Assembly: GCA_018660825.1 (NCBI GenBank)
Contig: JABJJO010000050.1
Span: forward strand, 1 to 49,842
DNA: 49,842 nucleotides
Reading direction: 5' to 3'
Source: Planctomycetaceae bacterium
GTDB taxonomy: Bacteria > Planctomycetota > Planctomycetia > Pirellulales > Pirellulaceae
The notes beneath the pieces were generated by a model. The model made no database searches, was not told the DNA's origin, and was given only the letters and a program-made list of their open reading frames with translations. The position numbers and the translations under genes were made by a program. Shown one piece after another: positions 137 through 41,485 of this stretch (position 1 is the stretch's first letter; every line of letters starts with the position of its first letter).

Positions 137-976
137 TTACAACACTCCCAGCGTTGCCAGAGCTGCTTGGATTTCAATTTGCATGGCTAGCATGGCGCTG
201 CCGAGAGTCAGCATAACGGCGCCGAGCAATACAAATGTATTGAGTGGTATTCCGATGACAAAGTGATTCAATGCTGGGCTTTGCCGACTTATCCACCCCA
301 GTGCCAAGTTCACAGTAATCATGATGATCATGACGGGCAGCACGATGCGGAGGGCCAGCGTGAAACTCCAAGTTGCGACGACAGCCGCTTGATCAAACCA
401 GTGGTCCGGTTCTTGAGTAACTGATAATTCACCGACGCCTAGCCATTGGTAACTGTCCAAGAGAGCAGTTATTAACATCCGCTGCATCCCAGATGTTAAT
501 AACACGGCGACGGTAATCAAGCTGACAAGCATCCCAATGGACGTATTACCTATTTGGGATTGTGTCGTGGTTTTTAGCGGTACACCAGACGTCATCCCGA
601 GCCATTGCCCTGCGATGAGTATGGATTCTACGACAAACAGAATTGCTGTTCCGAGCGCCAATCCGGTGATACCCTCGGAGATCAGCAAGTTTATGGGGGG
701 CAGGCTGTTGGTTACACCGGCGGACGCGGCATTGGGGGGATTCAGAAAGGGGGCGAACAGTCCTGAGTCGTGCTGGACGGGAGTTACCAACGCTGTGAGC
801 AGAACGGCGAGTACTATTTTTGTTTTCCAGTTCCAGTGCATTCGTCCTAGAGGCAATAGCAAAACGATTGGAACCATTCGACAGGCAACGATCAGGCCGG
901 TAGCGAGCGGAATCGTTTCGCCTAAGTCAAGGAGTTCCGGTGGGAGTCGTTCTTGCCAATCATACATGTCCGCCAT
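137..976 (-). CDS. fliR: FliR flagellar biosynthesis protein
   Basis: The 279-residue polytopic protein has about six hydrophobic segments and the usual FliR length (about 260 residues). Typical features are an early helix with a RMVPIVLLLP segment, a central GQWLGMTSG-like motif, and a C-terminal pair of helices ending in a short amphipathic tail. FliR joins FliP and FliQ in the helical export gate inside the MS ring. The start ATG at 976 has a strong ribosome site, GGAGG at 990-986, lying in the 3' end of fliQ. The gene lies between fliQ (7 bp gap) and flhB. Identity is supported by both sequence and order. Confidence 0.93.
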   Translation of the reverse strand: MADMYDWQERLPPELLDLGETIPLATGLIVACRMVPIVLLLPLGRMHWNWKTKIVLAVLLTALVTPVQHDSGLFAPFLNPPNAASAGVTNSLPPINLLISEGITGLALGTAILFVVESILIAGQWLGMTSGVPLKTTTQSQIGNTSIGMLVSLITVAVLLTSGMQRMLITALLDSYQWLGVGELSVTQEPDHWFDQAAVVATWSFTLALRIVLPVMIIMITVNLALGWISRQSPALNHFVIGIPLNTFVLLGAVMLTLGSAMLAMQIEIQAALATLGVL

Positions 977-982
977 CAGGTG

Positions 983-1258
983 CTATCCTCCGAAAATCAT
1001 TTGGGGGATGCTGGTGAAGAGTTGTGTTGAGTACTCTGTAAGCTTCTCGAAAATCCACGGCAAGCAAATGCACATCACGAGTAAAATTGCAGTCAGTTTT
1101 GGAATATAGCTTAGTGTGTGATCTTGGATCTGAGTCATGGCTTGCAACATACCGACCAAGAGTCCCACGAGGATGGCAATTACGAGGATGGGCGCAGCGA
1201 TCAATAACGCTTGCATAAACGCTTGTTGACCAAGTTCAACTGCTTGCTCAGACTGCAT
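983..1258 (-). CDS. fliQ: FliQ flagellar biosynthesis protein
   Basis: The 91-residue protein has two membrane helices, the normal FliQ size. The family signature is clear: the N-terminal helix (residues 16-38) ends in the MLQAMTQIQDHTLSYIPK segment, the loop typical of FliQ/SctS, and a second helix covers about residues 52-72. FliQ is the four-copy component of the FliPQR export gate. The gene is 63 bp downstream of fliP and 7 bp before fliR in the same direction. Confidence 0.96.
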   Translation of the reverse strand: MQSEQAVELGQQAFMQALLIAAPILVIAILVGLLVGMLQAMTQIQDHTLSYIPKLTAILLVMCICLPWIFEKLTEYSTQLFTSIPQMIFGG

Positions 1259-1321: not shown

Positions 1322-2293
1322 TTAGCCGAAGCTTTCCAAGAGCATGCCTATGATTAGGTGCCAACCATCGACGAGGACGAACAGCATGATTTTAAATGGG
1401 AGTGAAATTGTAGTTGGAGGTAACATCATCATGCCCATTGCATTGGTCACGCTACTGATAACGATATCCAAGACCAAAAATGGCAGGAAAATAATGAACC
1501 CAATAAGAAAAGCGGTCTTTAGCTCGCTGATCATAAAAGCGGGCAATAATGCCTGCATAGGGATGTCGTGATAGCTTAGTGCGGTGGTCGCGGACCCGCT
1601 TTGATTGCTTGCTGCGAAGTAGGACGGTTCGTTGCCCGTCTGTGATTTACGCGCGTTTTCAGGTAGGTGATCGTAAAATAACCACACGTCTTCACTGTTG
1701 CCAGCCCTGTCGATTTGCCTTCCCATGAAGTTCACCAAGGAACTACGAGCGACTTCCCAAGCATATTCGCCAGAAATTTCCTTATCGCTATAGGGGACGA
1801 TCGCTTCTTCGTAGACAGTCGTCCAAGTGGGCGTCATTATTAAAGCACTCATGAACAAAGCCAACGCACCAATCACTTGGTTGCTGGGGTTTTGCTGTGT
1901 CCCTAGAGCTTGCCGCAGTAGACCAAGCACTACGGAAATTCGCAGGAATGAAGTTGTCATCAGCAGTACCGCTGGTGCAACACTAAGCACGGTAACCATC
2001 AGGAAAAGCTTCAAACTGCTGAGAGCCTGTTCGGGCGAATTGAGTTGCTGCTCGAGAACATTAACGCTCGGTTGGGCGGCGGGAGCAACGACTGCGTTTG
2101 GGGGTGTGCTGTTGTCGACAGGCTCGACACTATTGCTGGTTTCGGCTTCGATGGGATACGCATGTATAGCGGACATCGGTAGGATGGTAAGGCACAGCAG
2201 CAATCCGGTTAGCGCACTGGCTAGCTGGATTCGCCGCGAACGAGTTGCTCGCTGCGGTAGTGTCGATTCAAAATTTCCAAGTTGGTGAGGCAT
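1322..2293 (-). CDS. fliP: FliP flagellar export gate protein
   Basis: I place the start at the ATG at 2293 (323 residues). A longer in-frame extension to 2497 would overlap fliO and carries no FliP-like sequence. Residues 24-45 form a cleavable signal peptide, as in other FliP proteins. The conserved core begins near residue 100. It contains TTSFLRISVVLGLLRQALGT (about 113-132), the ISELKTAFLIGF segment (about 255-266) and the C-terminal GMMMLPP...FVLVDGW region (287-311). FliP is the five-copy gate subunit. Compared with E. coli FliP there is about 20 extra residues, low in complexity (residues 218-240), in the periplasmic loop. The operon neighbours fliO and fliQ confirm the call. Confidence 0.95.
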   Translation of the reverse strand: MPHQLGNFESTLPQRATRSRRIQLASALTGLLLCLTILPMSAIHAYPIEAETSNSVEPVDNSTPPNAVVAPAAQPSVNVLEQQLNSPEQALSSLKLFLMVTVLSVAPAVLLMTTSFLRISVVLGLLRQALGTQQNPSNQVIGALALFMSALIMTPTWTTVYEEAIVPYSDKEISGEYAWEVARSSLVNFMGRQIDRAGNSEDVWLFYDHLPENARKSQTGNEPSYFAASNQSGSATTALSYHDIPMQALLPAFMISELKTAFLIGFIIFLPFLVLDIVISSVTNAMGMMMLPPTTISLPFKIMLFVLVDGWHLIIGMLLESFG

Positions 2294-2330
2294 TAGTTTT
2301 GTCTGGAATCTGTTGCCGCTGAACCGTTCT

Positions 2331-2990
2331 TTAAGCACTGAACGTTTCGTTGGGATTCTGTGAGTATTGGGCGAATATTCGCTTAAAGGTGCTTTGGGGA
2401 AGTTCACTTGCGGCGCCAGTTTGTAAGTTTGTTTCAAGCAACTGTGCAACTTCCACCGGATCATTAATTTCAGCCAGGCAGGTGACACTGCTGTCACTAG
2501 CGGAGATCAATAGAATTCGTTGTCCAAGGCGGATTAAGTGCAGGCTGTGGATTTTGTTGATTTGCTTTTGTCCGAGTAATTCCAGTGTTTGTTGTGACAT
2601 CATAGCCTGGGAGGGACCTTGGATCTTCTTGGTGATCCACAGCAGCACCATGAATGCACCGAGAACAACGGTCAACGCGCCAACCATGCGAGTAGCGGAT
2701 TGGGTGAAATTGGGAATCGAGAATTTACTGGTTGCCGAAGTGGTAGCAGGAGACGATGTAGACTCAGTCTTTCGCGACTGCAAGGGCAGTCGCGGGAATG
2801 GCGATCGCTGTAATGACTGCAGTGATTGGGGTTCGAGCTCTCTAGTTACTGATTGCGGCGGGTCAACTTGAGCTGTGCAAATACTGCTTGTTAGTACAAG
2901 CGCCAACATAGTCCATATGCACGACAGGAATTGTTTGTCGAACGGGTTCGAGTTGGTAAGCGAAAAGTGTGCTTGTTGCGTAGGCGACAT
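2331..2990 (-). CDS. fliO: FliO-like flagellar assembly protein
   Basis: The 219-residue protein has an N-terminal hydrophobic signal (20-39), a Ser/Thr/Pro-rich periplasmic linker (40-100), one membrane helix (102-120) and a C-terminal cytoplasmic domain. In that domain the LELLGQKQINKIHSLHLIRLGQRILL pattern (first part 136-150) matches the FliO fold, in which a small beta domain follows the helix. FliO helps assemble the FliP ring and is not part of the finished gate. The gene lies between fliN and fliP (35 and 37 bp gaps). FliO sequences diverge widely, so the order adds much of the weight. Confidence 0.85.
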   Translation of the reverse strand: MSPTQQAHFSLTNSNPFDKQFLSCIWTMLALVLTSSICTAQVDPPQSVTRELEPQSLQSLQRSPFPRLPLQSRKTESTSSPATTSATSKFSIPNFTQSATRMVGALTVVLGAFMVLLWITKKIQGPSQAMMSQQTLELLGQKQINKIHSLHLIRLGQRILLISASDSSVTCLAEINDPVEVAQLLETNLQTGAASELPQSTFKRIFAQYSQNPNETFSA

Positions 2991-3025: not shown

Positions 3026-3493
3026 TTATTGGGCAGATGGTGAAATGGAGTCGTGGCTAGTAGAGGTGATTGTGAGTACATACTCACCATTGTGAACGGT
3101 TAATTCAGCGGTGGCGATGATGTGGTTGCCTCGGTAAACGACGACAGGTTGTTCAAGTCGCTCGGACGATAACAAGACGTCACCTGAGGAGAGTCCTGCG
3201 AGCGTTTCTTGAGTGACATCCAGACGGCAGAATTCTGCTCGCAATATATTTGAGTGCACTTGTGTGGGGGCATGTTGTGCAGGTATGGCATTTTGGCTGG
3301 GCCCAGACAGTTGCGGGTACGGTATGGCTTGTTGAGTTGCCTCAGTGTCTTCTTGTTGCAGCATTTGGGTGAGTTGCGAGCATTTATGGAGCGTCTCGAG
3401 GATTGGCGCAGGGTCCGTCTGAGTCGTGGGTGTATCTGATGCCGAGTTGTTTGAATCCGCGGCAGAATCGGGATTGTTTGGTTCGGTTGTCAT
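3026..3493 (-). CDS. fliN: FliN-type flagellar switch (C-ring) protein
   Basis: The chosen ATG at 3493 gives 155 residues; the upstream in-frame ATG at 3547 adds a hydrophobic stretch that does not look like FliN. Residues 1-78 are polar and low in complexity (Asn/Ser/Thr/Gln/Pro-rich). Residues 80-145 form a SpoA/FliN C-terminal domain, with LSSGDVLLSS and PVVVYRGNHIIATAEL aligning to the 'GDVLxLD...V.VxVNGxxxxxGE' pattern. FliN lines the bottom of the C-ring and docks export substrates through FliH. It is the first gene of the minus-strand run into fliOPQR-flhB. No fliM is in the window. Confidence 0.88.
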   Translation of the reverse strand: MTTEPNNPDSAADSNNSASDTPTTQTDPAPILETLHKCSQLTQMLQQEDTEATQQAIPYPQLSGPSQNAIPAQHAPTQVHSNILRAEFCRLDVTQETLAGLSSGDVLLSSERLEQPVVVYRGNHIIATAELTVHNGEYVLTITSTSHDSISPSAQ

Positions 3494-4740
<1,247 letters not shown>

Positions 4741-5446: not shown

Positions 5447-7000
5447 ATGCAATCATTTTCAAACATCAGCAGTATGGCTCTTGCGGCACTGCGTGAGTCG
5501 AAAAAATCCACGCGGATAGCCCTAGTGGTGTGTGTATCGATTTTGGGTATTTCGATTATGGTTCTGATCAGCGGTGGTGAACGAAAGATGGAACGCCTGT
5601 TCGCGGGGCGGGAGTTATCGGCGAGTGAAATATCAAAAATAACGCAGTCTTTTTCAGTGGCGAAGCTAGACCAGTGGGAAGTGGTAGGCAAGCAAATTCA
5701 AATTCCACGGACTGAGCGGGCGAAGTATCTTGTGGCACTCGAGGGTAAATTTGATTTAGATGCTCGCAATACCGACGTCGACCAAGTGCTGCAACAAACG
5801 AGTATATTAGACACACCTAGTCTGCGCGATCTGCGATTGCGAAATGCAAAGGAAAAAGATCTCGCCATGGTGGTAATGCAGATGCCTGATATCGAAGTAG
5901 CTCGAGTAAACATCGATACCAAACAAGAACGTGGTTTATCAGGACAAACAAAAATGGTTGCCCTCGCAGCACTCAAAGCTGCAAATGGCGAAGACTTGAC
6001 GATACAAAAAGCAGAATCCATTCGAGATATTATCGCTGCGCGTTACGCTGGTTTGCAACGCGACGAGGTCGTGGTCATTGATTTGAACAGTGGCCATACC
6101 TTCGGTTCCTCAACCTCTCTGCCGCAACCCACGGACCGCCAACGTGCGATGCGTGACTATGAGAGGTGGTGGAAAAATCGCATTGAAAATCTACTTGTCG
6201 ATATTCCAAATAAACGTATTGAAGTAAGTTTGCAGATTATATCACCTACCTCTTTCACCGAAGGTTCGCCTGTGCTCGGTCAATCGACAGATCGCATTCG
6301 AGCGAGTATTTCAGTTGGGATCCCACATTCGTATATTCAACAAGTCGCCACCGCGAATAGCGGGTATTCTAAACCGTTAAATGGGCCGGAGCACCAGAAA
6401 TTTGTCGCACAATTGGAAATGCAAATATTGCAGAACGTAACAACATTGGTGCAAGGTGTTATGCCGATTGTTCCTCAGGCCACGCTCGAACCGCTGCAAG
6501 TAAACGTTGCCACAATTGTTGACTTGGTAAACGCTGAATCCGTTGTGAGTCCCTCAAATCCGTCGTTGACGAGTTTTGCGAACCATTGGCGAGAGGCAGT
6601 CATGGGCCTAGTAATGGTGATTACATCATTGACGTTTGTGCGCCATCTCCGCAATCGCTCAAACATTCCCATTCCTCGGTCAGCAGCGAGTGAAGACAGC
6701 GAGAACTTGTCGACGGCAGAGGTGATATTGAATGCAACCACGACAGCGGAATTAGAGTCCTCTGTCGATGGGCCCACGATACCGGATTTTGCTGATACCA
6801 GTCCGCAATTCCTAGTCTATCCACTTGGGGTTTATGATCGCCGACAAACTCTGAAGACGGCTGCCCTAGAGAGGACGGCGACTAAAGTTGACGCGGAGCC
6901 TAGTTTAACCAATGAGTTAGATAGATTGTTAAATGATTCACCTGCCGATGCGGCGGATATTTTACGACAGTGGGTAAGTAGTGCAAATGATGGATCATGA
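5447..7000 (+). CDS. fliF: FliF flagellar M-ring protein
   Basis: The 517-residue protein has two membrane helices (about 24-43 and 383-402) enclosing a large periplasmic part, the standard FliF topology. The N-terminal ring-building region contains the YscJ/FliF pattern: LFAGRELSASEISKI, QQTSILDTPSLRDLRLRNAKEKDLA and a DIEVARVNIDTKQERGLSG segment like the 'VxSARVHL' strand. The cytoplasmic tail ends with an acidic/hydrophobic helix, LLNDSPADAADILRQW (about 494-509), resembling the FliG-binding end of FliF. FliF forms the MS ring on which the C-ring and export gate assemble. The stop overlaps the fliG start, suggesting coupling. Confidence 0.93.
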   Translation: MQSFSNISSMALAALRESKKSTRIALVVCVSILGISIMVLISGGERKMERLFAGRELSASEISKITQSFSVAKLDQWEVVGKQIQIPRTERAKYLVALEGKFDLDARNTDVDQVLQQTSILDTPSLRDLRLRNAKEKDLAMVVMQMPDIEVARVNIDTKQERGLSGQTKMVALAALKAANGEDLTIQKAESIRDIIAARYAGLQRDEVVVIDLNSGHTFGSSTSLPQPTDRQRAMRDYERWWKNRIENLLVDIPNKRIEVSLQIISPTSFTEGSPVLGQSTDRIRASISVGIPHSYIQQVATANSGYSKPLNGPEHQKFVAQLEMQILQNVTTLVQGVMPIVPQATLEPLQVNVATIVDLVNAESVVSPSNPSLTSFANHWREAVMGLVMVITSLTFVRHLRNRSNIPIPRSAASEDSENLSTAEVILNATTTAELESSVDGPTIPDFADTSPQFLVYPLGVYDRRQTLKTAALERTATKVDAEPSLTNELDRLLNDSPADAADILRQWVSSANDGS

Positions 7001-8003
7001 CACATTGCGGCGAGCGGCAGTTTTAGTTGCAAGTCTTAAACCAGGCCAAGCGGATGAGTTGATTGCTCAATTGTCGTCCCGCGATGCGAAACGACTACTG
7101 GCCTGTGTTGCCAATCTTTCGGCCGAAGACTTAGCTGCGTCCGCCGATGTCATAGAAGATTTTCTCGATCATCATCAGGAACCCGCCAAAACACATCTTG
7201 CGGACACGCTCGCAACGCAAAAACCGGAACAACAATCTTCTGTTAACCCCGTAATTATTGCTGCACCGGATTTCGATTTTTTAGATCAAGTGTCCCCTAC
7301 TTTGGTAGCGGATTTTTTGTCGAGCGTACATAGTCAAATTGGGGCGGCCATTTTGTCGACGTTGCCCTCAAGATTTGCGGGTGTAATTCTGTCCTATTTT
7401 GACTCGCAAAAACAGCAGGACGTTCTAGACCGGATTGCGGCTTCCGGTAAATGTGCCGCTGAATCGTTGCAGTTCGCTGTGTTATTACTGCAAGATCGGC
7501 TGCTGCAAATTGACACAAATGGTCAAGGACATAGTCCACGGCCTGATACTAAAGCCCAAGAGATTCGGGTCGCCGCACAAAGTAGTTTTCGCAATCGAAC
7601 CATTTCTGCGCTGGATACACCAGGAACAGAGTTGGGTCATTTAGGGGCTGGCCAGCGGTTCGATCGGGTAACTGTGGAAAAAGCCAAACAGCAAATCACC
7701 TTGCGTTTTGAGGATTTGATTTTGCTTGACGATCGATCCTTGGCTCAAGTATTCCACGTCGTCGACTCGCAAGTCATGTTGTTAGCACTTGCCGGCGCGA
7801 CCGTGGATTTCATTACTCGAGTGTCGGGACCGTTGACGAGTTCACAAAAAGAACGCTTCAATCAACAAATTCAGTCCCTTGGTCCAGTTTCACTTGGTGA
7901 GATAGAACAAGCTCAGCAAAATGTTGCGGAAACCGCAACGCATCTTGCCAATGCAGGGCAGATAACGATTACAGGCCAGCAACCATTTTTGGCGGCGGCT
8001 TAG
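6987..8003 (+). CDS. fliG: FliG-like flagellar motor switch protein, divergent
   Basis: The 338-residue protein is FliG by order (overlapping the end of fliF) and by its C-terminal domain. RFEDLILLDDRSLAQVF (240-256) and the gapless LALAGA...LGPVSLGEIEQAQQNV stretch align with FliG_C. The N-terminal part is a helical FliG_N/M-like region. It is unusual in three ways. The EHPQ motif reads VHSQ (114-117). The MFxF motif reads TLRF (238-241). The five charged residues tied to torque in E. coli (K264, R281, D288, D289, R297 by my recollection of numbering) align with A269, S286, Q293, Q294 and S302. ATG at 6987 is preferred; GTG at 6981 and ATG at 6990 are alternatives. Confidence 0.88.
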   Translation: MMDHDTLRRAAVLVASLKPGQADELIAQLSSRDAKRLLACVANLSAEDLAASADVIEDFLDHHQEPAKTHLADTLATQKPEQQSSVNPVIIAAPDFDFLDQVSPTLVADFLSSVHSQIGAAILSTLPSRFAGVILSYFDSQKQQDVLDRIAASGKCAAESLQFAVLLLQDRLLQIDTNGQGHSPRPDTKAQEIRVAAQSSFRNRTISALDTPGTELGHLGAGQRFDRVTVEKAKQQITLRFEDLILLDDRSLAQVFHVVDSQVMLLALAGATVDFITRVSGPLTSSQKERFNQQIQSLGPVSLGEIEQAQQNVAETATHLANAGQITITGQQPFLAAA

Positions 8004-8029: not shown

Positions 8030-9670
8030 TTACTCGTGAGTAGTAATATTCCTCAGCTCGCTGAGGTTGTCGAGTCGGTGTCGTGTTGGAGCAGTTCGTT
8101 TTTTAGCTTGGCGGTCCGCTTTGCCAACTCGAATGAGGAAAAAAGCGATAATTAGCATTGCACCGATAAAGGCCATCGCAACATAAATTCCGCGACCGGA
8201 CCGATCGACAGTTGGCTGCGTGTGGACATGGATGGCGCTGGCAATAATCAGCGGACTGAGTTGTTCACGTTCAGGACCGTCTCGCATCGTAAGTGCTGAT
8301 TGATAGGACCAGAGTTTGAAAAATACCCCTTGAACCGTCACTTTTTCACGCAGTAGTTTACGACCGTCCACACCCTGCCGTAATTCGTTCATCGCCAGTT
8401 GTAATTTCGGGGGTAGATGATTTACGCAGACTTGTAAGGGAAATCGATTTTGAAAGATAAGACCAGCTTGGTCGGCATCATTAGTTTTCACTCGAATACG
8501 GTGTTTGCCAATCGGTATGGAGAGGTCGAGTTGCCAATAGTGATCACTGCCGAGGCGCTGGCGCATTTTTGAGTTGACGATGGTAATGCGGCTAATTTGC
8601 CGCACGTCGCCATGGATCGTCACAAATTGTCCTTGCAACGCGTTCGTGTCTTTGAAGTAATCCACGATTGCGGGCGTTGGAGGTGGTGATTGTTGATGAA
8701 CGTGCTGGATTGAATCTAGCGCGGAAGAGGGCTGGAAAATTTTGAGAATTTGGTAGAAGGCTTCGCGGTCGTTATGTCCGAGTGCCGATTTGTTGGTGCG
8801 ACGAATTTCATCGAGCAAACCAGAATCAAAACCATGTTGGCTAAGCAGCACCATTGAGCTATGTACATTTCGTTCAATGGAAATGTCCCTTGGCAGCCAT
8901 TTAACGCGCGAAGCAGCCATTATTAATTCGAGTTGTTTATTTTCATCAGTTGTTTTTAATAGTAAGCCGTCGACAAGAATTGGTTCGTCAATCTCAAAGG
9001 GCATTTGCTGCTTTGTTTGTGCTGTTGAAGATCCTTCGGCGACCTCGGTCGTGACTGCCGCCGAGCGTTTCCACGAATCGGGAAACCAAGCGATGGGTAG
9101 TTTTCGAGTGGCGATTCGGATTGGCATATCGCTGTCGGTAGCTCTGATGGTGACCCAGAAAAAAGAATTGAATCCAATCAGTCGCGCTGCTTCGGGGATG
9201 ATGTATTGTCGTTTTACACTTGTTGCCCGCCCCCGAATCGTGAAAAAGTTGATGCGATGTCGATCAACGTCGTTTGCCAACATATCAAGGGTGATGGCGG
9301 AATCTGTGTGCGCGGTTGGTTTTGTCAATCGCTGAATATCACTCTCGCTAATTTTCGGGAATACAGCCAGCAGCTTACCAATCGTATCGACGTCTTTTCC
9401 AACCACGGGGTCGAGGTCAATTAAGAAACGAAGTTCACTGGGACCAATTCCGGAAATTTCTAGAATTTGTTCAGCAGTAGTACTATGGGCAATCGAAAAT
9501 GGAAGCTGGTGATCACTAATCTTGTTTTGATTCCATGGCAGGGGTTCGTCAGCGTGCAGTCGACCATGGTGTTGCGCGAAACAGAATCCGCAAATTGCGA
9601 CTGCGTAAAGCACCACTGGTAAGTGGAATTGCGATGTGGCACGGTGAGATTGGATGTTGGTAAGGGACAT
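8030..9670 (-). CDS. Secreted, C-terminally membrane-anchored protein with two copies of a paralogous domain
   Basis: No known family recognised. The 546 residues start with a signal peptide (hydrophobic 17-32, likely cleavage LHA|DEP near 40), followed by a short helical region with an EISGIGPSEL segment that resembles a helix-hairpin-helix turn (71-80). Two related beta-rich units follow, at about 140-262 and 345-484. Each opens with 'F.TI.G....' (FFTIRGRA; FVTIHGDV) and closes with a 'V.G....K' strand and an 'AS/ASA' end (VDGLLLKT...AASRVKWLP; VQGVFFKLW...IIASAI). One membrane helix (494-515) and a basic tail end the protein. The same unit occurs once in the upstream gene 40 bp away, so the two probably act together. 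An OB-like fold is a guess. Confidence 0.8.
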   Translation of the reverse strand: MSLTNIQSHRATSQFHLPVVLYAVAICGFCFAQHHGRLHADEPLPWNQNKISDHQLPFSIAHSTTAEQILEISGIGPSELRFLIDLDPVVGKDVDTIGKLLAVFPKISESDIQRLTKPTAHTDSAITLDMLANDVDRHRINFFTIRGRATSVKRQYIIPEAARLIGFNSFFWVTIRATDSDMPIRIATRKLPIAWFPDSWKRSAAVTTEVAEGSSTAQTKQQMPFEIDEPILVDGLLLKTTDENKQLELIMAASRVKWLPRDISIERNVHSSMVLLSQHGFDSGLLDEIRRTNKSALGHNDREAFYQILKIFQPSSALDSIQHVHQQSPPPTPAIVDYFKDTNALQGQFVTIHGDVRQISRITIVNSKMRQRLGSDHYWQLDLSIPIGKHRIRVKTNDADQAGLIFQNRFPLQVCVNHLPPKLQLAMNELRQGVDGRKLLREKVTVQGVFFKLWSYQSALTMRDGPEREQLSPLIIASAIHVHTQPTVDRSGRGIYVAMAFIGAMLIIAFFLIRVGKADRQAKKRTAPTRHRLDNLSELRNITTHE

Positions 9671-9710: not shown

Positions 9711-11195
9711 TTATTGTGTAGACGAGTTTTGTTCTGCGAGTTGCTGCAGGGCGGCGCGAGTCGGTAGGGCTACTTCATCATCGCTGAGACCGGCCAAATG
9801 TTTTGATATATTGGTCGGGGATGTCTCTGTAGCAGTTTGCCCTTTCCAGCGGCTCATCAAGTACACGCCACCGGTGAAGCCAGCAGCGAGAATCAGGGGA
9901 ATCGCAAATATTGCCCAAACGGGTAGCTGAGCCGCCGGTTTTGCAGAAGTCGGCGCCGCCATTTTTTCATGGGGCAACCATTGAAAAGAATTGGCGAGCA
10001 TTAATGGTGAGGAAAACATCTGTCCTTGCGTTCCGTTATGTGCCCATGATTTAAAGAAATATCCAGTTACTTGAACGACGTCATTCATGTCCGCGGTGGT
10101 GCGGTCGATGTCTTTGTCGGGTAGCGCCGGAAAACCGCTCGGCGGTTGCAGACAGTACACGATTAAAGGCGTGGTGCTTCCGCCACTGGGTCGGATTACA
10201 AGGACATAGTATTGTGGGATGTCGAGTTGGTTTGTGGGTGCTTGGACGCGATACGCTTTGCGGACTTCACCTCGCATGGATATTAATTTACCCCGAAAAG
10301 TATCTTGTTGTTTTGAGAGCTCGAGAATGTTGGGTGTGAATAGGACACTCGCTTGCAAGCGATCCGCAGTGGCAGTGCGTAATGTTTCGAGCATTCGGAA
10401 CCATGCTAAGTTGTCGCTATTGCGAAACACCGTGTGGTCGTCAATTCGTGACATTCCAATTTGATCGAGGATGTGTTGAATGAATTGATATTCGGCTTGA
10501 TTTACCTCTGGGGTTTGCTTGTCAGAAGTTGTTTCAAGGATATCGAGAAATGCTTTGCGCAGCGTTTGTGTCCACCGCGTTCGCAGTTGACCAAGTACGG
10601 TTTGAGCGCGAGTTTTCTGTGCGGGTGTAAGTGCTGTTGTTGTCGAGTGAATCGACAACATGAGTTGTTGTTCGTATTTTTGGTACAGTAAATTTATTTT
10701 TTGGTACAGATCCCACCAAAGGGTTTGCTGTTGATTATTGCCACGCTTCCCGTTGCGTGCTCGGCGCAGAGTGTCTGTTAATGTTTGTTGCTCAGTGGAG
10801 GTTAATTTTTTTAGGATGGCAATCCACAGCGTGCGGTGGGTTGATTGTAGGTCTCGGGAGGCTTGGCTAGCCGTTGGTGGTAATGGATTGCCAAACCTGG
10901 CAAGTTGCGGATCAAACAAGATGTGGGCGCTGTTGCCTGATGCTGCGTTGGTCGGTGAATTTACTTGGACGGCTGCATGATCGTCAAAGAAACGAAACAA
11001 ATCGGGATCGCGAACTTTATCCATCATAATCACGATGGTCATTAGTAATGCGACGAGGGCAAATAGTTTGTATTGAACCTTTCGTGAAAAATAGTTTGGC
11101 GGTGGACGCCGTTTGCCAGTTCCGAGACCAGTTCTTGTGCCTTTCCCAACGGCTTGATCGTCGTCTCGAATTGATTTGCTACTTCTAAAATGCAC
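9711..11195 (-). CDS. Membrane protein, paralogous to the downstream gene
   Basis: No known family recognised. The 494-residue protein has a basic cytoplasmic N-terminus, a membrane helix (43-58), a long helical extracytoplasmic part (about 90-290), one beta-rich unit (300-408: FRGKLISMRGEVRK...VTGYFFKSW...SPLMLANSFQWLP) and a second helix (424-448) before a 46-residue cytoplasmic tail. The unit is clearly related to both units of the downstream protein: FFKSW against FFKLW, and FQWLPHE against VKWLPRD. The pair is likely an operon. The two-helix topology would put both ends inside the cell and the shared domain outside. Confidence 0.8.
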   Translation of the reverse strand: MHFRSSKSIRDDDQAVGKGTRTGLGTGKRRPPPNYFSRKVQYKLFALVALLMTIVIMMDKVRDPDLFRFFDDHAAVQVNSPTNAASGNSAHILFDPQLARFGNPLPPTASQASRDLQSTHRTLWIAILKKLTSTEQQTLTDTLRRARNGKRGNNQQQTLWWDLYQKINLLYQKYEQQLMLSIHSTTTALTPAQKTRAQTVLGQLRTRWTQTLRKAFLDILETTSDKQTPEVNQAEYQFIQHILDQIGMSRIDDHTVFRNSDNLAWFRMLETLRTATADRLQASVLFTPNILELSKQQDTFRGKLISMRGEVRKAYRVQAPTNQLDIPQYYVLVIRPSGGSTTPLIVYCLQPPSGFPALPDKDIDRTTADMNDVVQVTGYFFKSWAHNGTQGQMFSSPLMLANSFQWLPHEKMAAPTSAKPAAQLPVWAIFAIPLILAAGFTGGVYLMSRWKGQTATETSPTNISKHLAGLSDDEVALPTRAALQQLAEQNSSTQ

Positions 11196-11709: not shown

Positions 11710-14700
11710 ATGATCTGTTGTAGGACTCTACTACTAACACGTCGCACATTATCCGCGCGATTTGTAATACTTTCCGTATTCTTCCTTGGTATGACTATAC
11801 TGGGTCGTGAGGCGGTGCAGGCAGAAGAGCCTGCAAGTGAGTTTTTAGGATCGCTACGCGCACTGAAGTATTATGACTTGGCCGAGTACTACTTGGACCT
11901 ACAAGTCGAGAAGGATCTGCTTGCACCGGAGTTTCGTGCCAAGCTAGACTATGAGCGTGCCCTTGTCCTCATTCAGAGTGCCCGTTTGATTGGTAACGGA
12001 GACGAGCGAGATAAGCAATTTGAAGTTGCTCAGCAATTATTAGAGAAGTTTGCGCAGGCATCACAAAATTCTGAATTGAAAATCCTCGCGAGCAACGAGT
12101 TAGGTAACCTATTATTTCAGCGCGCCAATCTTATCTTGTTCGAAGCGAATCAAGACGAGAACAAGGCGATTCGCGGTGACATGTTGGGTCAAGCTCGATT
12201 GCTGTTGCAACGGGCCCGTGAGATCTATGTGGCGGGTCGAACACAACTGAAAACGGAATTAGAAGCGATACCGAAGATTTTGGATCCCAAAACGCAACAG
12301 TCACAAATTGAACGGCGGAAATCGTTGTATGGCAATTATTTGCAATCGATGATTACCGCTACGAAATTGCTTGAGGAAATCGGCAAGACATATGATCCAG
12401 GCACACCGGAACACAAGGCAGCATTTGAACAAGCGTTGCCTGAGTATGATGATATAGCGATTAAGTATCGTAACAAAGGTGCTGGATTATTGGCCTTGGT
12501 TGCACAGGGGCGATGTTATTTGGCGATTGATGACACTAAGCAAGCAATGAGTTATCTCAAACAGGTGGTCGACCAACGAGAAACACCTGGCTTTAGAAAT
12601 ATTGTCACGCAAGCAATGCCGCTGTATATCGAAGCCCTATCGCATGAATCGGTAAACCAGATTGAACAGGCATTGACGATTGGTGTAGCGTGGAACGCAG
12701 ACATTCGGCCCAATGAAACATACAATGAGGAATGGCATGAATTTCAACTAGAGCTTGCGCGGGCCTATATTCGAAAAGCTCAGGTCTTGGAAAAGGAAAA
12801 TCCGGAGGATCGTGAGGCGCGCAAGGCATATGTAGCAGCTCGGAAACTGGCACAACAAGTTCTTAAATACCCAGGGAAGTATAAAAACGTCGCTCGTGAT
12901 ATTATTGCGTCTTTGCCGGATTTGCCAGGTGGTGCTGGTGAAGAAGAAAAAACTCCCGAGACATTCGCCGAGGCTTTGGCGTTAGGCAAGGAATACATGG
13001 AGTCGGCTCAAACGATGGAATTTACCATAAAGAGTTTGCCGGCGACAATTGCGGCTGAGACCGATGAGGCGAATAAAAATGTTTTGGTAACGCAATTGCG
13101 TGAAGCGCAGGAAAATTACAAATCGACGCAAGCTGCTGCTGTGTCATACTATGAAATGGCATTAACGTTTACCGATGCGGACACACCAGTGGAACAGTTG
13201 CAGGAAGTCTATTACTATTTGACATTCATCAATTACAGCCGCAAACAATATTATGAAGCGGCTGTTTTGGGCGAATATTTGGCACGCCGTTATCCTGACA
13301 CGAACGCTGCTCGGCCTTGTGCAAAAATTGCCTTAAATTGCTACCAATTACTTTACAACCAAGCAGCATCAGACGACCGCGAATTCGAAGTATTGCGATT
13401 GATTGATATCGCTGAATATACGATCAATAATTGGGAAACTAGCGATGAAGCGATAGATGCTCGACGAAGACTCGTGCCCTACATGATCGAAGCGGGCCGT
13501 TTTGATGACGCACGTACTTTTACGTTGGATATTCCGGAAGGGGCGGCGGAGCGACTAGAGTCTGAATTGCGTTTGGGCCGAGCGATGTGGTTGCGTTACC
13601 GTCAACGTATAGGGGAGGAAAAAAAGTTAAAAGAGAATCAATCTAATCCAGCTCGACTTGCGGAGTTGGCAATCGAGATTCCGCAATTGTTAGCAGTTGC
13701 TGCTGAAATGTTGACTGCAGGCACAGACCATTTAGCCGCCAGTGCAAAAACTGCTCGAATTACTTCTAGTTCCGTGAACGGCTTGTTGTCGGCTTGTCAA
13801 TATTATATTCAAGTGGGCCAGCCAGCCAAAGCAGTTAGTCACTTAGAAGCCGATGATTATGGTTTGCTGACGTTGATTCGAAATAAGAACCCCGCGGCCA
13901 GTCGTTCTTCGTTAGCGGAACAAGGTTTTCGAATTGCTCTGAGTGGCCATATCGCCATGCTTGGATTTGGCCAAGATGCTCAAACACACATTGACGACGC
14001 CAAAGCGATCATGGCCGAACTAAACGCCCTTGTTGGTGAGACACCGGACGGGCAAAAACGTTTGGTGAGTATTTATTTTACTTTAGCCCGAGAATTGGAA
14101 ATTCAATTAGCCGCAGCCAATGATGACGCTCAGCGAAAGGTACTCGCCGATGGCTTCGAGACTTTTCTCAAAGAAGTCAGTAATACGTCGGATCAGTTTA
14201 CGGTTCGGCATTGGGTCGGCGTCACGATGCAGAGTCTCGGTAACGGATTTGAGGTCAACGGCACGATGACCCCGCAAGCCAAAGTGTATTACGAAAAAGC
14301 AATTAAACAGTTTACCGAGATTAAAGAAAGAGGCAAAACGGATCCTACTTGGGTGCACGAAGACCCTGCGACGGCGAAGGCATATATCGGTTCGATTCGA
14401 ATGAATTTGGCTCAAGTCATGAAAAAGATCGGTGATTATAAAGCAGCCTCGACGGAACTTGCTTACATCCTGTTAGAGACACCATCGAACGTCAGCGTTC
14501 AGATAGAAGCTGCCCGCACTTACAGTGAATTAGGTGTGCGGGAAAAGGATTCTGCTAAATATTTGCTAGCTATTGGAGGTGCTCGCAAAATGAAAAGCGG
14601 TGACAACTTAATCTGGGGTTGGCGAAAGATAAACCGGTTAACGCAGGGCAAAGAAGCATTTACGAACGAATACTACGAGTCTCGTCTGGGGATTGCCGAG

Positions 14701-14898
14701 GCCCGTTTGGGTTATGCAATGTTGAAGACAGGAGAAGACAAAAAAAAATATTTGGGTTATGCCAAATTAGAGATACTCAATACAAAAAAAATATACCCAG
14801 AACTTGGCGGACCAGAATTCAAGGCTCGTTTTGATGCGATGTTAAGAAAAATCCAAAAAGCTCTGGGTGAACGTGTTACAGGTTTAGTAAACAAATAG
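11710..14898 (+). CDS. Large secreted TPR-repeat protein
   Basis: The 1,062 residues begin with a signal peptide (hydrophobic 18-31, likely cleavage VQA|EE near 38). The rest is almost wholly alpha-helical with TPR-like helix pairs throughout. Examples are ALRALKYYDLAEYYLD-type, AAVLGEYLARRYPDTNAARPCAK, VYYEKAIKQFTEI and the C-terminal AEARLGYAMLKTGEDKKKYLGYAKLE units. No enzymatic motif is seen. Such proteins act as scaffolds, here in the periplasm. It heads a same-strand cluster with a second TPR protein, ExbB and two ExbD proteins, so it may be the periplasmic load or adaptor of that proton-driven complex; this is an inference from context. Confidence 0.85.
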   Translation: MICCRTLLLTRRTLSARFVILSVFFLGMTILGREAVQAEEPASEFLGSLRALKYYDLAEYYLDLQVEKDLLAPEFRAKLDYERALVLIQSARLIGNGDERDKQFEVAQQLLEKFAQASQNSELKILASNELGNLLFQRANLILFEANQDENKAIRGDMLGQARLLLQRAREIYVAGRTQLKTELEAIPKILDPKTQQSQIERRKSLYGNYLQSMITATKLLEEIGKTYDPGTPEHKAAFEQALPEYDDIAIKYRNKGAGLLALVAQGRCYLAIDDTKQAMSYLKQVVDQRETPGFRNIVTQAMPLYIEALSHESVNQIEQALTIGVAWNADIRPNETYNEEWHEFQLELARAYIRKAQVLEKENPEDREARKAYVAARKLAQQVLKYPGKYKNVARDIIASLPDLPGGAGEEEKTPETFAEALALGKEYMESAQTMEFTIKSLPATIAAETDEANKNVLVTQLREAQENYKSTQAAAVSYYEMALTFTDADTPVEQLQEVYYYLTFINYSRKQYYEAAVLGEYLARRYPDTNAARPCAKIALNCYQLLYNQAASDDREFEVLRLIDIAEYTINNWETSDEAIDARRRLVPYMIEAGRFDDARTFTLDIPEGAAERLESELRLGRAMWLRYRQRIGEEKKLKENQSNPARLAELAIEIPQLLAVAAEMLTAGTDHLAASAKTARITSSSVNGLLSACQYYIQVGQPAKAVSHLEADDYGLLTLIRNKNPAASRSSLAEQGFRIALSGHIAMLGFGQDAQTHIDDAKAIMAELNALVGETPDGQKRLVSIYFTLARELEIQLAAANDDAQRKVLADGFETFLKEVSNTSDQFTVRHWVGVTMQSLGNGFEVNGTMTPQAKVYYEKAIKQFTEIKERGKTDPTWVHEDPATAKAYIGSIRMNLAQVMKKIGDYKAASTELAYILLETPSNVSVQIEAARTYSELGVREKDSAKYLLAIGGARKMKSGDNLIWGWRKINRLTQGKEAFTNEYYESRLGIAEARLGYAMLKTGEDKKKYLGYAKLEILNTKKIYPELGGPEFKARFDAMLRKIQKALGERVTGLVNK

Positions 14899-14986
14899 AA
14901 GTAGCCCATTGTGGTCATGAGGGAAATACTGTTTCCGCCCGCAAGTGGAGCAGTCGATTGAAAACGAAATAAATAGGGATATGCAA

Positions 14987-16054
14987 ATGATCAAACGATT
15001 GCAACTAATTAAGCTCGTGCTGTTGTCGAGTCTGTTTTTAGTCGGTACGAATGTTGTGCAAGCTCAGGTCAAGGATCAAATTTACTTGATCAGTAATCCG
15101 AATGATTCGGTGACGGGTTTGATTGACTCGATTACCAAGAATGCAGTGACCGTGCGAGTTAACGGTGTGCCGCGTAAGTTAGCAGCCAACGACGTATCGC
15201 GGATTCAATTTGTGGATTCCCCAACGGAAGTTTTGCAGGCCGCCGCGATGTTTCGTAAAGGGCAGTTAAAAGACGCTCGTGCGGAACTTGCAAAGGTTAA
15301 TCTAGACGGAATCCAGAATCCATTCGTCAAACAGGATGTTGCTTATATGCTTGCGGCAGTGGATGCCCGCAGTGCGCTTGCTGGTGACGGTGATAAAAAT
15401 CAAGCTGGCTCACTGTTAGTCACGTTTTTGAATCAATACGCTGATAGCTATCATTATTATGAAATTGTCGAACTGTTCGGTGATTTAGCGTACGCGGTAG
15501 GTAGTTTTGACAAGGCGGCCGAACAGTACACCATTTTAACGACATCTCCTTGGGAAGATTTAAAGATCAAAGGGACGTTGCGATTAGCTAATTCAACGGT
15601 CGGCAAAGGCGACTATGCCGCTGCGTTGCTCATGTTCGAGAAAGTTGCTGCGGTTCCAGCGACGACGCCGTTGATGCAATTGACCGTTTCTGAGGCAAAA
15701 GCTGGCCAAGCAAGGTGCCTGGGTGAAACGGGAAAAGCGGCAGCCGGGATTGCTCTGACTGATAAGTTGATTAAGGACAATGATCCGAAAACGCAGAAAC
15801 AGTTATTTGCTCAAGCTTACAATGCTCAAGGTGTTTGTTACCGTAGCAATAAACAACCCAAAGATGCTATCCTTGCATTTCTACACACCCACTTAATATT
15901 TAACGAATCGGCTGATGCACATGCGGAATCACTATACCACTTGTCGCAACTGTGGAGCGAGGTTAGTAAAGCGGATCGTGCTCAAGATAGCAAACGTCTG
16001 TTACGAGAAAAGTATGCAGGCACCTTTTGGGAACAGAAATCACGAGCAGAATAA
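14987..16054 (+). CDS. Secreted TPR protein
   Basis: The ATG at 14987 is chosen because AGGG (14975-14978) sits about eight bases upstream and the protein then starts with a clean signal peptide (MIKRLQLIKLVLLSSLFLVG, likely cleavage VQA|QV at 26). An in-frame ATG at 14981 is also possible. The 355 residues comprise a small beta-rich segment after the signal (QIYLISNPNDSVTGLIDSI..., RIQFVDS), then TPR-like helices from about residue 75 to the end (AAAMFRKGQLKDARAEL; SFDKAAEQYTILT; NAQGVCYRSNKQPKDAILAF). It lies 88 bp after the large TPR gene and 189 bp before exbB. Likely a periplasmic partner of the same system. Confidence 0.85.
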   Translation: MIKRLQLIKLVLLSSLFLVGTNVVQAQVKDQIYLISNPNDSVTGLIDSITKNAVTVRVNGVPRKLAANDVSRIQFVDSPTEVLQAAAMFRKGQLKDARAELAKVNLDGIQNPFVKQDVAYMLAAVDARSALAGDGDKNQAGSLLVTFLNQYADSYHYYEIVELFGDLAYAVGSFDKAAEQYTILTTSPWEDLKIKGTLRLANSTVGKGDYAAALLMFEKVAAVPATTPLMQLTVSEAKAGQARCLGETGKAAAGIALTDKLIKDNDPKTQKQLFAQAYNAQGVCYRSNKQPKDAILAFLHTHLIFNESADAHAESLYHLSQLWSEVSKADRAQDSKRLLREKYAGTFWEQKSRAE

Positions 16055-16187
16055 CCGACAAACATTTGCTCTCGAGCTTTTATTTTGGCGGCGGTTCGGG
16101 AATAATACAGAGTCTACCATCGCAACAAATATTAATCATAATCGCATCCCTTAATAAAATAGACTAACACTAACATTTTACTTATGC

Positions 16188-16213
16188 GGTACTTTTGTAC
16201 CACACTCTACAAT
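16188..16213 (+). promoter_or_regulatory. Inverted repeat and possible -10 element upstream of exbB
   Basis: GGTAC-TTTT-GTACC (16188-16201) is a perfect inverted repeat, and TACAAT (16208-16213, five of six matches to TATAAT) follows. It is about 30-50 bases before the exbB ATG. This could be an internal promoter with an operator, allowing the ExbB/ExbD genes to be expressed separately from the TPR genes. No clear -35 was found. Confidence 0.3.
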
Positions 16214-16243
16214 GAGTTTTAGATTCAAAGAACGGAGACAACA

Positions 16244-17119
16244 ATGGTTCAATTAGCAATCCCAGCGTGGCCCAAATGGATTTTGACAGGGCTAACGGCA
16301 TTAGCGCTAGTTGTCGGTTTGGGCGATTCGCTCAGCCTTAACATGACATCAGTGTTGGTTGCACAAGATGATTTGCCTGATGAAAACGTGCCCGAAGAGG
16401 ACAATGCGGAACCGGCTCCGGTTGATAACGAAAACGAGGCACCGGCAGCGGGCGAAGATGGTGCGGCGGGCGGAGATGGTGGAGACGCACCGACGTCTTA
16501 TCTAGCTTGGGTGTTTGATGCACTTGGTGTCGGCTATACGTTGATTTTCCTTGCGCTTTCTTTTACGCTAGTCGCCTTGTTTGTTATGAATTTGATCACT
16601 AGTGCTCGCAGTAAGGTTTGTCCGGTGCATCTAGTCGAAGACTTTGAAGAGATGCTTGACAATAAACAATATCAAGACGCTTACGAATTAGCCAAGGAGC
16701 ACGAATCTGTACTAGGTTCCGTTTTGTCAGCTGGTTTAGCAAAGCTGTCGGCTGGGTATCCTCAGGCTATCGAAGCGATGCAGGAAATTGGTGAAGAAGA
16801 GAACATGAAGCTTGAACATCGATTGAGTTATATGGCTTTGATCGGAACGATTTCACCGATGGTTGGGTTGTTTGGTACGGTTCACGGGATGATCGCGGCG
16901 TTTCAAGTTATCGCAACGGGTGGATCGACGCCGGAAGCTTCCGAGCTTGCCGGCGGTATCTCAACTGCTTTGTTTACGACTCTCTTGGGACTGGCGATCG
17001 CGATTCCAGCTATTGCTGTTTATAACATCCTCAAAAACCGAGTAGCACGACTGATGCTAGAAGTAGGCATCCTCAGTGAAGGTTTGATGGGGCGATTTGA
17101 AGGTGTAGGCAAGAAATAG
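16244..17119 (+). CDS. ExbB/TolQ/MotA-family proton channel protein with acidic N-terminal extension
   Basis: The 291-residue protein carries an N-terminal signal-like helix (13-30; VLVA|QDD near 40). An Asp/Glu/Ala/Pro/Gly-rich stretch (41-84) follows, then the ExbB core: a helix at about 96-118, the hairpin signature ISPMVGLFGTVHGMIAAF (about 203-220) and GGISTALFTTLLGLAIAIP (from about 236). This matches the family pattern 'P.LGLLGTV.GMI.AF ... GI..AL.TT..GL..AIPA'. ExbB-type pentamers pass protons together with an ExbD dimer to power periplasmic work. GGAG (16234-16237) precedes the ATG. The two exbD genes follow by 6 and 11 bp. Confidence 0.93.
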   Translation: MVQLAIPAWPKWILTGLTALALVVGLGDSLSLNMTSVLVAQDDLPDENVPEEDNAEPAPVDNENEAPAAGEDGAAGGDGGDAPTSYLAWVFDALGVGYTLIFLALSFTLVALFVMNLITSARSKVCPVHLVEDFEEMLDNKQYQDAYELAKEHESVLGSVLSAGLAKLSAGYPQAIEAMQEIGEEENMKLEHRLSYMALIGTISPMVGLFGTVHGMIAAFQVIATGGSTPEASELAGGISTALFTTLLGLAIAIPAIAVYNILKNRVARLMLEVGILSEGLMGRFEGVGKK

Positions 17120-17125
17120 AAACCG

Positions 17126-17599
17126 ATGCGAATAAAGAAACAAAAATCCGAAATCCTCGAAGGCGATTTGACGCCGATGATTGACATGACGTTTCAGTTG
17201 ATCGCTTTTTTTATGGTGTTGATTAATTTCACCCAGAGCGAAACCAACGATATGGTTCAACTACCGGATAGTGCACTGGCTAAGCCACCAGATTCACAAT
17301 TGGAGAATCTAGTGATCATTCATCTTGGTCAAGATGGCACGGCCGTCATGAACCAAACCGAAGTGAATTACCTCGGTCTACGCCATTATCTGGATGTTGA
17401 ATATTATCGCATTGACGTGCAAACGACGGACAGTCCTAAGGACACGACGATAGTTATCCGTGCTCACAAGGCTGCCAAAGGGGGAATGGTGCAGGAATTG
17501 ATTCAGATTTGCCAAGAGGCAGGTTTTGAGAATTTTGCATTGCGTGCCGAAGAAAATATAAATAGCGCTCCAAAATATATAACACCATTAGGGGGCTAA
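17126..17599 (+). CDS. ExbD/TolR-family protein, first copy
   Basis: The 157-residue protein has the classic layout: short cytoplasmic N-terminus, one membrane helix with the proton-carrying aspartate in LTPMIDMTFQLIAFFMVL (D20), and a periplasmic domain. That domain contains the family's 'VVIRAHKAAKGGMVQELIQICQEAGF' pattern near residues 110-135. It would form a dimer inside the ExbB pentamer. It differs clearly from the second copy 11 bp downstream, so the functional unit may be an ExbD heterodimer. Confidence 0.93.
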   Translation: MRIKKQKSEILEGDLTPMIDMTFQLIAFFMVLINFTQSETNDMVQLPDSALAKPPDSQLENLVIIHLGQDGTAVMNQTEVNYLGLRHYLDVEYYRIDVQTTDSPKDTTIVIRAHKAAKGGMVQELIQICQEAGFENFALRAEENINSAPKYITPLGG

Positions 17600-17610
17600 C
17601 CGAGACAATA

Positions 17611-18099
17611 ATGAAGATACGCAATACTGATGGCAAGGGTGAAAAAATCGAACTGCAGATGACTCCGATGATTGACATCGTGTTTCAACTGCTTGTGTTT
17701 TTCATTATGACGTTCAAAATTGTCGCGATGGAGGGTGATTTCAATATCCGCATGCCCGCTGCATCACCACAAGCTGCCCCGCCAGATCAAATGGAGTTTC
17801 CGCCGATGAAGCTATATTTATCGGGCAATGAAGATGGCACTCTGGCTGGTATACGCTTAAATGAAGAGAGCTTGCCGACGGTACAGCATTTGAATTCTCG
17901 AATTCAAGAGTTGATAGGTACCGATGGAGGTCCGAGTCGAGACACTGCGGAAATCGAAGTTGGTTTTGATTATGACTTGCATTATGAGTGGGTGATTGGT
18001 GCAATCACCGCGGTGTCTGGTACGAAGGACACGAATGGCAATGTTGTACGATTAATCGAAAAGATACGATTTAATACACCCGAGTCACAAGACGAATAG
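17611..18099 (+). CDS. ExbD/TolR-family protein, second copy
   Basis: The 162-residue protein has the essential aspartate in MTPMIDIVFQLLVFFIMTF (D22) and a periplasmic domain with an EIEVGFDYDLHYEWVIGAITAV segment matching the ExbD fold. It keeps the same topology as the first copy but has a different periplasmic surface (RMPAASPQAAPPDQMEFPP linker). It is last in the TPR-TPR-exbB-exbD-exbD run and converges on the recombinase gene, ending 18 bp before it. Confidence 0.93.
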   Translation: MKIRNTDGKGEKIELQMTPMIDIVFQLLVFFIMTFKIVAMEGDFNIRMPAASPQAAPPDQMEFPPMKLYLSGNEDGTLAGIRLNEESLPTVQHLNSRIQELIGTDGGPSRDTAEIEVGFDYDLHYEWVIGAITAVSGTKDTNGNVVRLIEKIRFNTPESQDE

Positions 18100-40454: not shown

Positions 40455-41485
40455 AATCAAAACGAAAACAAGGTAGTGAAATCGGTGGTTTGGATTCCTT
40501 TCAAGACATCGTTGCCAACTTGGTCGGAGTATTAATCATCTTGGTTATTATTGTGATGGTGCGCACCCGCGAAGCGATAGTTTCAGCGCAAACACAAACC
40601 GACCAAGAGGAAGTTATAAATTCTGATGAGGGGGCGAGCATGGAAACTGTTGCTGCCGCGGAACGTGAATCCACAGCGATTGAAAAAGATATTCATGATC
40701 TCGAAGAGGTAAGTACACGGCAACAAATTGAAATAAAGTATCGCAGAGCAGAGCGTGATAAGTTGCAGCAACTTGTTGCCACAGTTGAGACTCGAATAGC
40801 GCAAGATTCCAAGGACTTGTCGAATGTTGATCAGATTTCCAATGACGAACAGGTTCTATTTGAGGCTCAGCAAAAAGAATTAGGCGATTTGATCCGTAGT
40901 CGACAAGTGCTTGACAACATGAAAGAACAGATCAATGTCATTGACCACATCCCAACTCCGATGGCGGAAACGGTATTCGGAGATGAGATTCATTTTCGCT
41001 TGGAAGACGGCCGTATTTCCTATGTACCGTTTAGCGAGTTGATCGATCGCATGAAATCGCATGCTGCTCAACATCTTGCTAACGTACGGATTCAAAAGAC
41101 CGTTACCAATACGCTCGGGCCCGTCGAAGGCTTTGAGTTGCGTTATCAATTGGGTTATGTGAGCCAAATAGTGCGCACTGATGTAGGTCCACGCAGGCAA
41201 GAACGGATTGAATTGATTAAATTGGAAGTATTACCCGTTGATTCCGCGCGGGGTGAAACGGTGACTGCGGCTCTAAAACCAGGTTCGCGATTCTTGCAAT
41301 ACGTACAACGACTGGTACCCGATACGGCAACGGTAACTATTTGGGTGTATCCCGATAGTTTTATTCAATTTCGAGAAATCAAGGATAAACTATTACCTCT
41401 TGGATATGCCTGTGCCGGTCGACCGCTACCGGATGGTATGCCGATTTCCGCTTCTCCGCAGGGCACGCGATCCGTCAGCCAATAG
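40451..41485 (+). CDS. Single-helix coiled-coil protein with a membrane-edge aspartate, ExbD/MotB-like
   Basis: The 344-residue protein has a basic start (MKSKRKQ), then GGLDSFQDIVANLVGVLIILVIIVMV. Here D19 sits at the start of the membrane helix (19-38), as the proton-carrying aspartate does in ExbD and MotB. A coiled coil (about 40-165: IEKDIHDLEEVSTRQQIEI, ERDKLQQLVATVETRI) and a C-terminal beta-rich domain follow. The domain includes RLEDGRISYVPFSELIDRM and SRFLQYVQRLVPDTATVTIWVYPDSFIQFREIKDKLLPLGY, the last part resembling an ExbD-like strand-helix-strand. It is coupled to the previous gene by an ATGA overlap. This is probably the active ion-carrying partner of the channel protein. Confidence 0.8.
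   Translation: MKSKRKQGSEIGGLDSFQDIVANLVGVLIILVIIVMVRTREAIVSAQTQTDQEEVINSDEGASMETVAAAERESTAIEKDIHDLEEVSTRQQIEIKYRRAERDKLQQLVATVETRIAQDSKDLSNVDQISNDEQVLFEAQQKELGDLIRSRQVLDNMKEQINVIDHIPTPMAETVFGDEIHFRLEDGRISYVPFSELIDRMKSHAAQHLANVRIQKTVTNTLGPVEGFELRYQLGYVSQIVRTDVGPRRQERIELIKLEVLPVDSARGETVTAALKPGSRFLQYVQRLVPDTATVTIWVYPDSFIQFREIKDKLLPLGYACAGRPLPDGMPISASPQGTRSVSQ

Follow-up and report, generated by a model that had tools for sequence, protein, structure and literature searches.

In FliG of Escherichia coli, R281, D288 and D289 are described as primary and K264 and R297 as secondary for torque (PMC6079164). In Borrelia burgdorferi, FliG1 is reported to be central in torque and FliG2 to be essential for flagellum synthesis (PMC7225975). 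In the non-flagellated Lysobacter enzymogenes, the flagellar export gate has been reported to be working, with FlgD being secreted (PMC9927559). Non-flagellar type III secretion systems (NF-T3SS) are derived from the flagellum and are defined by the lack of FliE, FlgB and FlgC, the retention of the gate and the requirement for a secretin; in the sections of that work used here, Planctomycetes are recorded with flagella and not with NF-T3SS (Abby and Rocha, PMC3459982). In Chlamydia, FliF, FliI and FlhA are described as the only flagellar orthologues, and the sections of that paper used here name no FliG or C ring (PMC2830194).

The window, which is the whole stretch of 49,842 nucleotides analyzed here, is a contig (C175) of a draft planctomycete genome (G000; 4.94 Mb, 221 contigs, 96.6% complete, 2.11% contamination). 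Its FliG is probably part of a reduced basal body made up of the MS ring (FliF), the C ring (FliG, FliM and FliN) and the export gate (FliOPQR, FlhA and FlhB), in which it would act as a torque-less scaffold that arose in two steps. Like B. burgdorferi, the motile members of the order carry two FliG proteins per genome. However, B. burgdorferi is a spirochaete whose flagella are periplasmic and whose motor works, whereas here the pattern extends across the order, the torque-type gene is isolated and the motor appears to have been lost in some lineages. As in L. enzymogenes, the export gate is kept in the apparent absence of a flagellum; however, going by the account of Lysobacter used here, that bacterium has lost fliG, fliM and motAB and keeps fliI, whereas G000 keeps FliG and FliM and FliI was not found. 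In keeping the gate and in having no flgB-flgC-fliE before fliF, the core of G000 resembles NF-T3SS. However, FliG, a flagellum-specific marker in PMC3459982, is kept in G000. As in Chlamydia, few flagellar core proteins are retained. A literature search, with subscription journals mostly outside its scope, found no title or abstract that treats a torque-less or stand-alone FliG, or a flagellar core in reduced form, in planctomycetes.

Table 1. Genes of the flagellar locus in the window and their immediate neighbors
Product	Coordinates	Strand	Evidence or remark
FliR, export gate	137..976	-	PF01311 E 4.6e-33
FliQ, export gate	983..1258	-	phmmer to E. coli FliQ E 2e-20
FliP, export gate	1322..2497	-	PF00813 E 3.2e-69
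FliO	2331..2990	-	PF04347 E 2.7e-9
FliN-like C-ring protein	3026..3547	-	PF01052 E 1.2e-8, above cut-off; TIGR02480 only E 0.0022
Malate/lactate dehydrogenase (MDH)	3751..4740	+	PF00056, PF02866
Histidine-kinase ATPase domain, 166 aa	4890..5390	+	PF02518 E 1.1e-23
FliF, MS ring	5447..7000	+	PF01514 E 2.9e-12; TIGR00206 E 9.4e-7, below its cut-off
FliG	6987..8003	+	PF14842, PF14841, PF01706; charge-free at five torque positions
546-aa protein	8030..9670	-	no Pfam/NCBIfam match; at the fliH-fliI-fliJ place of relatives; candidate member only
494-aa protein	9711..11195	-	no Pfam/NCBIfam match; candidate member only

The N-terminal, middle and C-terminal domains of FliG follow one another in order, and all three matches are above cut-off. 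The match to the TIGR00207 fliG model (E 2.5e-27, 96.1 bits) misses its equivalog threshold of 226.7 bits. Residues are numbered here from the ATG at 6987; an in-frame GTG lies upstream at 6981, and fliG adjoins and overlaps the end of fliF (6981-7000). The sequence-only reading had described a C-terminal domain that aligns with E. coli FliG without gaps and is neutral at every key torque position, and both statements are borne out: the alignment with E. coli FliG (L002) has 25 identities over 90 C-terminal columns with 0 gaps, and K264, R281, D288, D289 and R297 are replaced by A269, S286, Q293, Q294 and S302. It is likewise confirmed that EHPQ is replaced by VHSQ and MFLF by TLRF. Among the 46 fliF-linked FliG proteins examined, the window FliG is the sole one with 0 of 5 torque positions charged. 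A scan of genome contigs gave a single relative, L003; the nearest named record is a 'Planctomycetaceae bacterium' MAG. The FliG of L003 is 91% identical and has Glu at the position of D288; a search of viral contigs found no relative. Because the stretch from S286 to Q293 contains K288, E289 and R290, the torque region of the window FliG is not charge-free. A shift of the charges to such nearby positions, which the sequence-only reading had considered, is rejected as the whole answer, because the alignment has no gap and the fliF-linked FliG proteins of motile relatives also lack the charges. AlphaFold models gave a mean pLDDT of 36.6 for FliG (with L003) and 35.5 for the 494-aa neighbor, and because these values are low, nothing is concluded from either model.

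The C-terminal end of FliF, presumably its FliG-binding part, is conserved across relatives and recognizable in the window. No flgB-flgC-fliE genes are present in the 56-base gap between the kinase gene and fliF, and fliH-fliI-fliJ were not found in the window after fliG, their place in relatives. The kinase at the corresponding position is longer in relatives. Gene clusters were labeled full (motile-type) or reduced in this analysis from their gene content. Because an MDH closely homologous to that of the window lies upstream of 6 of the 10 full clusters examined, the flagellar locus looks ancestral; such an MDH also lies beside most of the reduced clusters read. A weak homologue of the 546-aa protein adjoins MDH in one reduced cluster (L097), and homologues of the 494-aa protein are found in L097 and in a motile-type region (L169); dN/dS is 0.177 for the 546-aa and 0.203 for the 494-aa protein. 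Near the flagellar cluster, positions 11710-18099 of the window carry genes for a TPR protein, ExbB and two ExbD proteins, and a similar TPR/ExbB/ExbD set adjoins the gate genes in two other genomes, G024 and G006 (L169, L170). Positions 37621-41485 hold a MotA/ExbB-like gene (433 aa) followed by genes for 511-aa and 344-aa proteins, each with one N-terminal hydrophobic stretch; in L052, a 758-aa homologue of the middle protein of this trio is encoded at a distance of about 5 kb from fliI.

Elsewhere in G000, contig C37 carries an flhB gene running to the contig end, a sulfotransferase gene, and genes for FlhA, FlhF and an FliA/WhiG sigma factor, which is the set that follows FliR in motile relatives. 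The gate proteins FliP, FliQ, FliR, FlhB and FlhA are thus all encoded in G000, with one FlhA. The partners that the sequence-only reading had named for a search (motA/motB, fliM and fliC) yielded in G000 a divergent FliM of 280 aa, no MotB_plug match above cut-off and no flagellin match. This FliM is without the N-terminal LSQAEIDALL-type motif and without GGxG, which are both found in most relatives and presumably serve CheY and FliG binding. Its gene adjoins proA; fliM likewise stands apart in the order. With the FliI of a relative as query, G000 gave four matches: atpD and atpA score best, and the weaker two lie on C141 and C165 (E ~1e-10); no FliI is among those identified. The sole rod/hook-type match of G000 lies on a 4.1 kb contig (L086 = C212, 4128 bases), which encodes FlgD and an FlgE of 1179 aa or more. 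In tetranucleotide composition this contig correlates with the genome at 0.763, slightly under the lowest value (0.769) of 29 equal-size slices of G000 itself, and its G+C (0.489) fits; the contig is either a contaminant or a real hook remnant, and its origin is doubtful. A second, canonical fliG, also raised by the sequence-only reading, was not found in G000, where the fliF-linked FliG is the one FliG_C match, and is present in most of the order.

FliG_C is found in 116 of 146 genomes of this order (probably Pirellulales), and the other 30 are without any FliG. A FliG copy with an E value under 1e-24 occurs in 91 genomes; in 88 of them, and so in 88 of the 146, this strong copy is accompanied by one or more additional matches. 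Cluster context was read in chosen genomes, short of all 116 with FliG. In the regions read, the weaker copy adjoins fliF, and the strong copy is isolated in 14 of 16 regions (L068-L077, L080-L083), near which no flagellar gene of the query set was found besides weak FlgI-like matches (L073, L074). The remaining two strong copies (L078, L079) lie inside a flagellar cluster of another type in G121 and G137. These two genomes, which belong to the window's family (L078, L079, L167, L168), have in that cluster an FlhB with NPTH and MotB-like genes, and also a separate fliF-fliG pair; a FliM match is absent from both. In most genomes of the order, a FliG that has every torque charge stands alone, away from other flagellar genes (L004-L033, L068-L077, L080-L083).

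The loss of the torque charges is clade-wide. All 46 fliF-linked FliG proteins examined lack K264, also where the genome encodes MotA/MotB and flagellin. A charge of the E. coli sign is found at none of the five positions in 7 of them, at one position in 32 and at two in 7, and never at more than two. The charge that is often kept is R297, in 17 of 21 rows from full-type clusters and 16 of 23 from reduced-type ones. In the stand-alone FliG, all five charge signs are present in 40 of 42 rows, which were taken from the chosen loci because they match one stand-alone FliG strongly, at E under 1e-50; L082 and L136 are one gene of G109, so the 42 rows represent 41 genes, and L044, L087 and L088 were aligned separately from this set. 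Consistently, the matching charges of MotA, R90 and E98, which the sequence-only reading had pointed to, are kept in 13 of 13 rows of relatives (11 full-type and two other-type clusters). Because the fliF-linked FliG is without the charges, the stand-alone FliG has them and MotA keeps R90 and E98, the FliG that matches MotA in motile relatives would be the stand-alone one. The cause of the charge loss also differs from that implied by the sequence-only reading, because even in motile relatives the FliG beside fliF is without the charges, while a separate FliG has all five signs (40 of 42 rows).

The stand-alone FliG and MotB occur together in 84 of the 146 genomes; seven have FliG only, five MotB only and 50 neither. 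The Fisher value for this association is 1.6e-25, which overstates independence because the genomes are related. One of the five genomes with MotB and no strong FliG, G145, has a full-type cluster. Stand-alone FliG copies with lost charges are found in G030 and G052, and also in G055, G019 and G065, all of them genomes without a MotB or flagellin match. The copies of G055, G019 and G065, which belong to one family, are only 23-35% identical to the other sequences outside it, so that they descend probably, but not certainly, from the stand-alone FliG. G044 and G109 have an intact stand-alone FliG with five charges and no MotB or flagellin match, with rod matches in G109; these copies could reflect another role for the stand-alone FliG, a recent loss or an assembly gap.

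FliG without MotB and flagellin matches is found in 25 of the 146 genomes, in eight families. FliM is present in 23 of these 25 and weak (E above 1e-50) in 21, and a rod-domain match is lacking in 23, the exceptions being G000 and G109. Where read, reduced clusters have the gene order of full clusters minus flgB-flgC-fliE and minus the fliK-to-motB stretch; an FliE-like gene is kept in G030 and perhaps in G036. FliF and FliG are joined in a single frame in G053, G021, G110, G039, G085, G057 and G074, and both models match the G057 protein. These single-frame proteins have 639-855 aa (L158, L094, L099, L100, L163, L164, L165; families f1, f2, f17 and f3). In G057 and G074, fliH, fliI and fliN were not seen between fliG and fliO. 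None of the 19 FlhB rows read from full and reduced clusters has NPTH, and both other-type clusters have it; in seven reduced rows FlhB is only 233-286 aa long.

A FliF+FliG+FliI tree of 36 rows (18 full and 18 reduced, the window excluded) requires at least seven changes between full and reduced, and a single clade of reduced clusters is rejected (p-AU 1.4e-5). The 36 rows were drawn from 48; G000, G005, G053, G057, G074, G110, G121, G137 and G140 were among those dropped because of long branches, missing genes or second systems, as were rows without FliI in hand, such as G004, and the FliF of G098 is a 132-aa fragment. In the gate tree, at least four changes are required, and the p-AU of one reduced clade is 0.0625 if the window is included and 0.0486 if it is left out. 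Repeated loss is therefore clear in the FliF+FliG+FliI tree and not in the gate tree, and the former rejects, and the latter does not clearly reject, the view that the reduced clusters are a single inherited family. The FliF-FliG and gate rows of the window lie on very long branches, and the window could not be placed.

Several planctomycete lineages thus seem to have kept a stripped flagellar base after losing motor and filament. In the first step, early in the order, a second, stand-alone FliG would have carried torque, so that the fliF-linked FliG could lose K264, R281, D288 and D289 at a time when the motor still served. In the second step, several lineages, including that of the window, would have lost the stator, the appendage and either the torque FliG or its charges, and the window lineage would then also have lost R297 and EHPQ. 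The remaining FliG may act as a scaffold or clamp on the C-terminus of FliF, joining the FliF ring to FliM/FliN or to the gate without producing torque, and the gate may export proteins on the proton gradient. Flagellar export can run without its ATPase. Against this reading stand the intact stand-alone FliG copies of G044 and G109, the five genomes with MotB and no strong FliG, the gate tree, the long-branched window row that could not be placed, and the contig with FlgD and FlgE. A more specific version is put forward tentatively, with nearly as much confidence for as against: the two FliG proteins might have divided their work, the fliF-linked one connecting MS ring and C ring and the stand-alone one meeting MotA, after which a stator-free MS ring, C ring and gate might have been kept in several lineages, in G000 free of FliHIJ and on the proton gradient alone. 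Of the two options offered by the sequence-only reading, use of the basal body for export or in a non-rotating structure is favored by the gene content of G000, with gate genes present, MotB and flagellin without a match and the sole rod/hook match on a doubtful contig. The other option, a different stator interface, is unsupported in G000 because no flagellar stator was found.

It is unlikely, although less so than the other alternatives, that the locus is a decaying and now functionless relict of a lost flagellum. Its very long branches, the failure to find FliI, the FliM motifs lost in G000 and the fact that no cargo is known speak for a relict. However, dN/dS of the window FliG against L003 is 0.126, and the window FliG is under purifying selection. 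Moreover, every gate gene read is an open frame, and the core is present in the 25 genomes without MotB and flagellin matches, whereas 30 other genomes of the order are without FliG.

There is little to suggest that G000 has a normal motor whose MotA/MotB, flagellin and canonical FliG lie on missing sequence. The assembly is an incomplete draft in many contigs, contigs end inside the cluster (at the window start and at the end of C37) and hook genes are present on one contig. However, this would require the gaps to have taken out several unlinked genes together, the absence of flgB-flgC-fliE before fliF and of fliH-fliI-fliJ after fliG is read directly, and FliM has diverged as in other genomes without MotB. 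Slightly less probable still is a ring driven through another interface by a non-flagellar stator (the 37621-41485 trio or ExbB-ExbD), with K288, E289 and R290 in the torque-helix region as replacement charges: G000 has seven MotA_ExbB matches, two of them inside the window, but the trio lies 30 kb off and among the loci read none has a close homologue of its first gene, the ExbB genes stand with ExbD genes, as is usual for outer-membrane transport, and no rod or filament is known in G000 for such a rotor to turn.

The reduced basal body, if it is what these genomes encode, offers a natural experiment on the role of the C ring without rotation, because lineages apparently lacking stator and appendage keep FliF, FliG, usually FliM, and the gate. 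In motile members of the order, a proposed division of labor between two FliG proteins becomes testable. For annotation, a FliG encoded beside fliF, even with motA and motB in the cluster, need not be the torque FliG. Two minor features were observed among the clusters. A sulfotransferase-family gene adjoins flhB in full and reduced clusters alike (L064:4773-5921; L051, L097, L163, L164, L169, L171, L172, L173, L096). In G024, a FliM match lies at one end of a 1403-aa frame (L123:9297-13508), which is possibly a fusion.
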